This document shows, one piece after another, positions 46,514-49,203 of a stretch of 64,000 nt of DNA. Positions within the stretch are counted from its first letter, which is position 1. Each line of letters opens with the position of its first letter. Both the position numbers and the translations under genes were made by a program. Source of the DNA: Candidatus Moanabacter tarae (GTDB lineage Bacteria > Verrucomicrobiota > Verrucomicrobiia > Opitutales > UBA2987); contig CP029803.1 in NCBI GenBank assembly GCA_003226295.1, positions 2,175,001 to 2,239,000 on the forward strand, in the 5' to 3' direction. The notes under the pieces are model-generated. The model searched no databases and had not been told where the DNA came from. It saw only the letters and a list, made by a program, of their open reading frames with translations.

Positions 46514-47455
46514 ATGTCTACCAATAGCATTGAAAGCCAAAGGTTTCACGATCAGCTCCTCCGTCTTTTGCGATGGGAAGATCTCGACGAAGAATATATC
46601 CGTCAACTAATTACGCTTGCGAAGGAAGAGGATCTAGAAGGTGCCGGCCTTGAAGCTATCCCGCCTTCTCCTGGCGATGTCACAACCAGTGCCATTGCTA
46701 CTGACGAAACAAAACGAGCGCAAATCGTGGCTTCCGAGGAACTCGTGATCTGCGGACTACCATTAGTCCCCCTAATTTTGGATGCCTACGGAACAGACCA
46801 AGACTTCGAAGCTCTGGTGGAAGAGGGGGTCCCAATGCGGGAAGGGGAAGTTCTTGCTGAGTTTTCGGGCTCGGCCACGTCGATCATCACCGCCGAACGC
46901 GTAATTTTGAACTTCTTGGGACACCTCTCCGGTATCGCGACGAACACAGCCAGATTTGTGGAGGAGTTGCACTGGAGTACCACCAAGTTGATCGATAATC
47001 GGAATTCTGTGCCTGGCCTCCGAGTCCTGGAGAAATATGCCGTAGCACAGGGGGGAGGGTGGAATCATAGAGTCGGTCTTTTTGATCGAATAGTGATCAG
47101 CGAAAAGCATTTTTGCCAAAGCCACACTGTCGCTACCGAGCGATTCGCCAACGCAGTTGACAGAGCACGTCATTGTTATCCAAATCTCCCTGTTGAAGTG
47201 GAGCTGCATTGTCTAGATCAGATACCCGCAATCGTAGAGAGTGGAGTCGAAGTTATACGATTGCTTAATTTTTCTCTGTGCGACCTAACTAAGGCAGTGG
47301 AGTTGATCGGAAACGCAGCCTTCAGTGAAGCGAGTGGTCCGTACTGTCTTCAGGATATATCGCAACTCTCTAATATTGGACTCGACTTTGTCTCTTGTAG
47401 CACCGTCATCAATCAAAGCGCTCGGAAAGAGATGAATCTTATCTGGTGCGACTAA
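46514..47455 (+). CDS. NadC-family (quinolinate phosphoribosyltransferase-like) protein, altered active site
   Basis: The protein is clearly built like nicotinate-nucleotide pyrophosphorylase (NadC), with an N-terminal sandwich, an alpha/beta barrel, and the LEKYAVAQGGGWNHRVGL segment. Several active-site residues are changed. The TRKT motif is NRNS (residues 162-165, so its lysine is Asn), the usual lysine of the IKDNH segment is Ser in ISEKH (196-199), and the LDN aspartate is Leu in RLLN (251). Arg163, His185/Arg186 and Glu230 remain. It may have lost or changed activity. It stands before birA and coaX. Confidence 0.85.
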   Translation: MSTNSIESQRFHDQLLRLLRWEDLDEEYIRQLITLAKEEDLEGAGLEAIPPSPGDVTTSAIATDETKRAQIVASEELVICGLPLVPLILDAYGTDQDFEALVEEGVPMREGEVLAEFSGSATSIITAERVILNFLGHLSGIATNTARFVEELHWSTTKLIDNRNSVPGLRVLEKYAVAQGGGWNHRVGLFDRIVISEKHFCQSHTVATERFANAVDRARHCYPNLPVEVELHCLDQIPAIVESGVEVIRLLNFSLCDLTKAVELIGNAAFSEASGPYCLQDISQLSNIGLDFVSCSTVINQSARKEMNLIWCD

Positions 47456-47528: not shown

Positions 47529-48212
47529 ATGACGCAAAACTTCTTAAAACAGTCCTTATATAACTCTCGAATTAGTGAGTCAGAGACAATTGACGCTTCC
47601 CGCATCAGGAACCACCTGCGAATCACGGGGTGCAATATTCCGATTCTTCACTTCCCTGAAGTTGATAGCACAAATCTTGAAGTCCCGCGGCAACTTGATA
47701 TGGGGCGATCACCTCCCTTTGCCATCCTGGCATCCAAGCAACAGTCTGGACGGGGAAGGCTGGGAAGACGCTGGCACAGCCCGGAAGAAGGAAACTGTTA
47801 CCTGAGCTTTGCCTTTACTCCTGATGCCGCGCCAGACAAACTTCAAAAACTCACCTGCTGGATTGGCCTCGAAATTTGTCGTCTCCTTCGAGACGAGTGT
47901 AAGATCCCGGTTCATATGAAATGGCCAAACGATCTTAAAGTAGGCCATCGAAAGATCGGAGGGATGCTGTGCGAAAGCCGGACCGAAGGGGGAAAGCTAC
48001 TCTATCTCGTTTTTGGGGTTGGGATTAATGTTAATTGCCGCTGCTCGCAGTGGCCCCCGCCAATAAAGGAAATCGCCACTTCTCTGGCCGAGGAGGCAGG
48101 AAAACAGCTGGCCCTAAATCATTTTATTGCCATGCTTGTAATCAGAGTCATACAGGCTTGGCAACAGTTCGGGACAGGAGAATTATCCGAAACAGATCCT
48201 TTATGCCTTTAA
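47529..48212 (+). CDS. birA: Biotin protein ligase, short form without C-terminal domain
   Basis: BirA attaches biotin to the carrier lysine of acetyl-CoA carboxylase, here most likely AccB at 57977. The catalytic core is intact: EVDSTNLEV, SGRGRLGRRWHSPEEG (biotinyl-AMP loop), MKWPNDLKVGHRKIGG and GVGINVNC. It lacks the N-terminal DNA-binding domain, so it is not a repressor. It ends at residue 227, just after the last catalytic-domain helix, without the usual SH3-like C-terminal domain. No frame after the stop restores it. It is probably functional or recently truncated. Confidence 0.85.
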   Translation: MTQNFLKQSLYNSRISESETIDASRIRNHLRITGCNIPILHFPEVDSTNLEVPRQLDMGRSPPFAILASKQQSGRGRLGRRWHSPEEGNCYLSFAFTPDAAPDKLQKLTCWIGLEICRLLRDECKIPVHMKWPNDLKVGHRKIGGMLCESRTEGGKLLYLVFGVGINVNCRCSQWPPPIKEIATSLAEEAGKQLALNHFIAMLVIRVIQAWQQFGTGELSETDPLCL

Positions 48213-48351: not shown

Positions 48352-48426
48352 ATGCTGATACGATGAATTCCAATCGGATCGACAAGATTAAAAAGACAGA
48401 GACGATTGCAAAGTCCCGGGTGCGCA

Positions 48427-49203
48427 ATGCGCGTCTTTACGGTTAACATTAATAACACGAATACTCAATTCGGTACCGTCCAAAACAATCGGTTGGTCGA
48501 GCGTAAAAGCATTTCGACGACCCTCTTGGACAACCCGGAAAGGGGCATTCGGCAAATTTTGCATTCTGTGCTTAAATCGAACCCAAAGCCGGATGGGCTT
48601 TGTTACAGTTCTGTAGTGCCTAAGAGTACTTGCTTGTTTAAAGAAGCAATGGATAACGCGAAGTGGAATTTACCGGCCATCCAGCTCACTTATAGGAATT
48701 GCCCCCTAAAGCTGAATTTCCCCAAACCAGAGGAAATTGGACAGGACCGACTAGCCAATGCCATTGCAGCTGAATATCTCTACCAGGTACCAGCAGTCGT
48801 TATCGATATGGGAACTGCGGTCACCTTTGATATCGTCTCAAGTCGGGGTTACGAAGGGGGCTTAATCGCGCCTGGACTCGATTTGATGACACGGTACCTT
48901 AACGAGCAAACGGCCTTGCTTCCCAAACTTGATCCTGACGATTTGATTGTTTCAGCCGGTATTGGGAAATCAACTCTTGAGGCAATGAAACTGGGTTGCG
49001 TAATTGGTATGGAAGGTATGATTCGGGCCCTGCTCTTGCGTGTGAGAAAGGAATTGAACCGTCTAGGCGAAGGCAAGCCCACTGTAATTGCAACTGGAGG
49101 GAGCGTTGGTGTCCTACCCAAAAAATGGCTACCTGATATCACCTTTAATCCCGACATTGCGTTGATTGGTCTCGCCAGAGCCTATCAGGTTTTGAAAGTA
49201 TGA
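48427..49203 (+). CDS. coaX: Type III pantothenate kinase, atypical N-terminal motif
   Basis: CoaX phosphorylates pantothenate, the first step of coenzyme A synthesis. The ASKHA-type motifs GQDRLANAIAAEYL and VVIDMGTAVTFDIV, with GGLIAPGLDL, are conserved. The usual first phosphate motif DxGNTN is here NINNTN, so both the Asp and the first Gly are Asn (residues 7 and 9). The chosen ATG at 48427 begins just before this motif; a longer TTG frame from 48406 adds seven unrelated residues. Its stop overlaps the start of the ABC ATPase gene by 4 bases. Confidence 0.85.
   Translation: MRVFTVNINNTNTQFGTVQNNRLVERKSISTTLLDNPERGIRQILHSVLKSNPKPDGLCYSSVVPKSTCLFKEAMDNAKWNLPAIQLTYRNCPLKLNFPKPEEIGQDRLANAIAAEYLYQVPAVVIDMGTAVTFDIVSSRGYEGGLIAPGLDLMTRYLNEQTALLPKLDPDDLIVSAGIGKSTLEAMKLGCVIGMEGMIRALLLRVRKELNRLGEGKPTVIATGGSVGVLPKKWLPDITFNPDIALIGLARAYQVLKV

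Follow-up and report, generated by a model that had tools for sequence, protein, structure and literature searches.

A displaced native NadC of an Opitutales genome has lost its catalytic residues and is probably retained as a folded pseudoenzyme

The closest described system is NadC itself (TIGR00078; PF02749 plus PF01729). In the porcine enzyme complexed with NaMN, as given in the available part of PMC3633916, the ribose is held by Glu201 and Asp222, the phosphate is held by Gly249, Gly250, Gly270, Lys139, Asn223, and Gln274, and the carboxylate pocket consists of Arg138, His160, Arg161, and Lys171. For the QAPRTase of Mtb, the accessible portion of PMC4065032 reports that the K172A single mutant, among others, has no detectable activity. 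Two further systems are comparable: ModD (TIGR01334), a NadC-like protein of unproven function, and the AdoMetDC prozyme, an example of pseudoenzymes reported to serve active paralogues as dead partners or regulators (PMC5201418). A search of the open-access literature found no paper on a dead NadC or on the nadC replacement described here. The gene under study lies in a window of 64,000 nucleotides (the whole stretch of DNA analysed) from a genome of 2.63 Mb in one contig. Its product resembles NadC in the full-length two-lobe fold, the synteny, and the retained Arg129, Arg163, His185, Arg186, and Glu230, and differs from it in that the positions of Lys164, Lys196, and Asp251 are replaced and the curated cut-off is missed. 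With ModD it shares the NadC fold and an altered KDNH lysine (VFDEH in the ModD-type protein L206), whereas L206 still has the lysine of TRK and the aspartate of LDK, both lost in the window copy. ModD identity was ruled out by a score of 52.7 bits against the TIGR01334 cut-off of 178.85. As in dead-partner pseudoenzymes, an apparently dead copy that retains its fold is found together with an active copy in one genome; unlike those systems, the active copy here comes from another family lineage, and the two copies are not known to interact. We conclude that the window copy is probably a displaced NadC that has turned into a non-catalytic, still folded pseudoenzyme.

The gene and its syntenic partners are as follows.

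46514..47455, + strand: gene for a NadC-fold protein (putative displaced native nadC), 313 aa, without the catalytic Lys/Lys/Asp
47529..48212, + strand: birA, downstream syntenic partner; TIGR00121 141.8 bits; PF03099 only, the catalytic domain
48406..49203, + strand: coaX, type III pantothenate kinase, syntenic partner; TIGR00671 129.9 bits, cut-off 58.2

The nadC-type gene is a single open frame of 313 codons, with the start ATG at 46514 and the stop at 47453-47455. The original prediction had given these coordinates with an intact frame and a NadC-type fold; the former are right, and the latter holds on the Pfam domains, the AlphaFold2 (AF2) model, and Foldseek matches to NadC structures. 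Both QRPTase domains occur in order, PF02749 (64.8 bits) followed by PF01729 (106.6 bits), each over its cut-off. Against TIGR00078, the window copy scores 191.4 bits and does not reach the curated cut-off of 198.4, while four native orthologues score 243-269 bits and P0002, the second copy of the same genome, scores 311.8. The AF2 model (mean pLDDT 90.5, pTM 0.89) indicates compatibility with the fold and is not proof of it, since 43 orthologues served as its alignment. Foldseek placed NadC structures at the top (best PDB match 3paj, E 4e-28; type II phosphoribosyltransferase fold). The window copy is about 40-50% identical to most orthologues of the order (nearest about 50%), and the codon-position G+C of its gene is like that of the neighbouring genes. 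A promoter and terminator scan around the gene gave nothing above chance.

The order nadC-birA-coaX is common to the window and to loci L115, L112, and L239, the last from G001 of the same family. Judging by orthology and synteny, the window copy is the ancestral native Opitutales nadC. The nadC-birA linkage is not universal, because G084 has a native nadC and none beside its birA. The birA of the window, the sole birA found in the genome, lacks the N-terminal HTH_11 and the C-terminal BPL_C, both of which are present in the orthologue L115, and inspection by eye of the three forward frames downstream revealed no evident C-terminal relic.

Comparison with NadC structures and with orthologues revealed replacements at three catalytic positions, each placed by both PDB and orthologue alignments.

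47003..47005, + strand: codon 164, AAT (Asn), replacing the TRKT lysine (Mtb K140)
47099..47101, + strand: codon 196, AGC (Ser), replacing the KDNH lysine (Mtb K172)
47264..47266, + strand: codon 251, CTT (Leu), replacing the LDN aspartate (Mtb D222)

These are the three altered residues that had been called from the sequence at first sight (N164, S196, and L251), and the PDB alignments together with the 115-sequence alignment confirmed that they fall on the K, K, and D of the family. Further conserved residues are lost that the earlier reading had missed, including T162, T165, D197, N198, D232, H300, W304, and others. Misalignment masking the catalytic residues was ruled out, as the independent PDB and orthologue alignments agree, and sequencing error was ruled out, since several altered codons involve two nucleotide differences and the reading frame is unbroken. 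K/K/D is present at the catalytic sites in 142 of the 147 NadC-type sequences of the order; the remaining five comprise the window copy, a ModD in which K196 has become F, and three sequences shortened before at least one site. No close orthologue among the 147 shares the altered residues, and a lineage-wide pseudoenzyme family was ruled out, with no second example in this set. The orthologue alignment showed no compensating lysine or aspartate in the window copy, and a search of genome contigs with the window protein as query confirmed no relative. Because three catalytic residues are lost together, NadC activity is very unlikely, and the sequence evidence strongly supports the loss of NadC catalysis in the window copy.

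The losses were sorted by subsite. The contacts to the phosphate and ribose of NaMN (PMC3633916) take in the lysine and the aspartate that the window copy has lost. In the carboxylate set, five of six residues are kept (R129, R163, H185, R186, and H199) and K196 is lost, while the phosphate/ribose set keeps three of eight (E230, N252, and G275), with K164, D251, G276, G296, and H300 lost. This contrast (1/6 versus 5/8 lost) is only suggestive (Fisher P 0.14), and changes at G276, G296, and H300 are also found singly in other orthologues. Ligand contacts are not hit preferentially (4/12 lost versus 13/47 of the other conserved columns, P 0.73), and such an even loss is also expected from general relaxation. 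By lobe, 3 of 18 conserved columns are lost in the N-lobe and 14 of 41 in the C-lobe (P 0.22). A phosphoribosyltransferase that has exchanged these residues yet still works on quinolinate or a different acid would fit the kept fold, the presence of E230 and N252, and the largely preserved carboxylate pocket. We consider such an enzyme highly improbable: the phosphate- and ribose-holding positions (K164, D251, Gly276, Gly296, and H300) are replaced, the alignment offers no compensating lysine or aspartate, and K172A alone abolishes the Mtb activity in the portion of PMC4065032 cited above. The option, raised in the original prediction, that the protein acts on another substrate is likewise disfavoured, because the site has lost most of its phosphoribosyl-binding side.

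For the conservation analysis, 152 native-like and 10 other-type loci were found, of which 115 and 9 were aligned once duplicates, sequences contained in others, and native sequences no longer than 250 aa had been removed; among the nine other-type sequences, which were sorted by bit score, are a ModD and three divergent members of family f2. Conservation of at least 97% in 114 native orthologues defines 59 columns; the window copy is changed at 17 of them, and the next worst orthologue at 2. Among the neighbouring genes of the window, changes at conserved columns number 0/29 in coaX (33 orthologues), 0/33 in the ABC ATPase (29 orthologues), 2/131 in proA (16 orthologues), and 3/27 in the ABC permease (26 orthologues). 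As these four genes show just 0-3 changes each, the loss of constraint is specific to the window nadC, and a genome-wide loss of constraint was ruled out. In birA, 5 of 42 conserved columns are changed and 8 are gapped, all near the shortened ends (62 orthologues). At 0.95, against a median of 0.20, the terminal branch of the window copy is the longest in the native set of 115. In the gene tree, the window copy joins L094 from another family of the order and not its own family (support 0.91-0.94; the first tree included L238, a duplicate of the window copy, and the second was built without it), a grouping that is perhaps long-branch noise.

A second, canonical nadC, which the original prediction had proposed to look for, is present elsewhere in the genome: P0002 carries the canonical motifs and is just 35-36% identical to the window copy. 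It stands directly after nadA and is followed by nadB in a nadA-nadC-nadB cluster; this nadB scores 442.6 bits, slightly below the TIGR00551 cut-off of 452.75, and L-aspartate oxidase models top its list. In the tree, P0002 falls into a clade of 14 (support 0.945) with sequences from f3 and f13, which are two further families of the order. The nadA genes of the window's genome (G000) and of G005, G015, G030, and G036 score 282-293 bits in a set of 52 genomes, and the other 34 nadA over the cut-off in this set score 328-388 bits, with two fragments set aside. The nadA and nadC of these five genomes thus belong to another lineage, nadA by score and nadC by tree. In the window's genome, nadA, nadC, and nadB stand in line at L192 (4679-8414), with nadA and nadC of the type seen in families f3 and f13, which suggests transfer of the pathway cluster or its differential loss within the order.

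A survey of the order found a match to the window protein in 294 of 372 genomes; sequences were examined for those retrieved as loci. Eight genomes, including G000, gave more than one match. In G022 and G137 the extra match is a distant copy (24-25% identical), typed as ModD for G022 only; in G068, G198, G307, and G324 the extra matches are adjoining pieces of one gene, and in G216 the match is a piece at a contig end. Two full-length NadC were seen solely in the window's genome among the 372 searched, and nadC in the order is normally single-copy. The split loci (L199/L209 in G068, L200/L208 in G307, L202/L203 in G324, and L201/L207/L210 in G198) reflect either real disruption or assembly error. 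The ModD-type protein L206 of G022 (1351-2196) scores 242 bits, over the cut-off, and adjoins nadA; its counterpart in G137 is L205. The survey gave no match in 78 of the 372 genomes, and most of the 20 such genomes listed are 0.8-1.3 Mb assemblies, suggesting that reduced genomes of the order have lost de novo NAD synthesis.

The main rival to a retained pseudoenzyme is an ordinary pseudogene at an early stage of the decay that followed replacement of the gene, its frame open by chance or kept open by the polarity of stops on birA/coaX. Such a relic is possible, though we hold it to be rather unlikely. The functional-looking second nadC makes the window copy redundant, the losses extend beyond ligand contacts, and the adjacent birA is shortened too. 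The native nadC can also be dispensable: no significant match to it was detected within 1.5 kb upstream of birA in G005, G015, G030, G036, G134, G153, and G206, all of which carry a nadC of the P0002 type only (best upstream match E 0.12, in G030). Against these points, the 313 codons contain no stop, and neutral simulation up to 28.8% of residues changed keeps 0.8% of frames open (P 0.008); in simulations started from three relatives, 0-2% remain open. None of 298 core columns is deleted, and no inserted column is specific to the window copy. Among hydrophobic-but-variable columns, 1 of 56 is violated versus 7.1 expected under neutral drift (P 0.007; at most 2 in other orthologues), and polarity accounts for the absent stops, not for this preserved core. 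Among the changed conserved codons, 5 of 17 need at least two nucleotide steps versus 9.5% expected (binomial P 0.018), so at least some changes are of older date, and two-step changes are too common for a young relic. A single target level (17/59, 95% CI 0.18-0.42) underlies all the neutral simulations, and at its lower bound the tests weaken (P of no stop 0.06-0.07; hydrophobic P 0.06); the four measures of stops, indels, hydrophobicity, and two-step changes are not independent. The folded chain thus appears to be still kept by selection. Free decay, the degeneration considered at the outset, is disfavoured because the frame is intact, indels are lacking, and the hydrophobic core is kept. 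The inactive regulator of the original prediction fares best in its first half: an inactive and retained protein fits the evidence best, its loss of catalysis being strongly supported by the lost residues, while a ligand-binding or regulatory role, and with it what the protein binds or regulates, is plausible and speculative.

In the reading that we prefer, a displaced NadC turned pseudoenzyme, the enzymatic job of the ancestral nadC would have been taken over by the P0002 nadC in its nadA-nadC-nadB cluster. Once freed, the window copy would have lost the phosphate-holding lysine, the quinolinate-contacting lysine, the ribose-holding aspartate, and the surrounding residues, with selection presumably continuing to maintain the folded chain. 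The protein could still offer a pyridine-carboxylate pocket composed of R129 (from the partner subunit), R163, H185, R186, and H199, and its role might be the binding of quinolinate or a similar carboxylate, or pairing with another NadC chain, rather than NaMN synthesis. A more specific proposal makes the protein a binder of pyridine carboxylates that catalyses nothing: it would sense or buffer quinolinate, or would modify the canonical NadC as a subunit, with PRPP handling erased and the acid pocket and fold under selection. This proposal is tentative and, as it stands, unlikely. Least probable among the alternatives is a mixed dimer in which the window copy would regulate or stabilise the canonical NadC, its retained Arg129 completing the site of the partner. 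R129 (Mtb R105', given across the dimer) is indeed kept, conserved columns are less lost in the N-lobe than in the C-lobe, though only at the P value given above, and partner-activating dead paralogues are known (PMC5201418 and PMC3663545). A shared interface is nevertheless unlikely given the low identity of the two copies and their separate lineages, and the window copy and the canonical nadC are not co-located.

Genes of this kind should not be labelled functional NadC in annotation, even where, as here, the score falls barely below the curated cut-off. The window copy is a clear snapshot of the fate of a biosynthetic enzyme once another version takes over, and, if the dead copy is functional, it would represent a pseudoenzyme in NAD synthesis.
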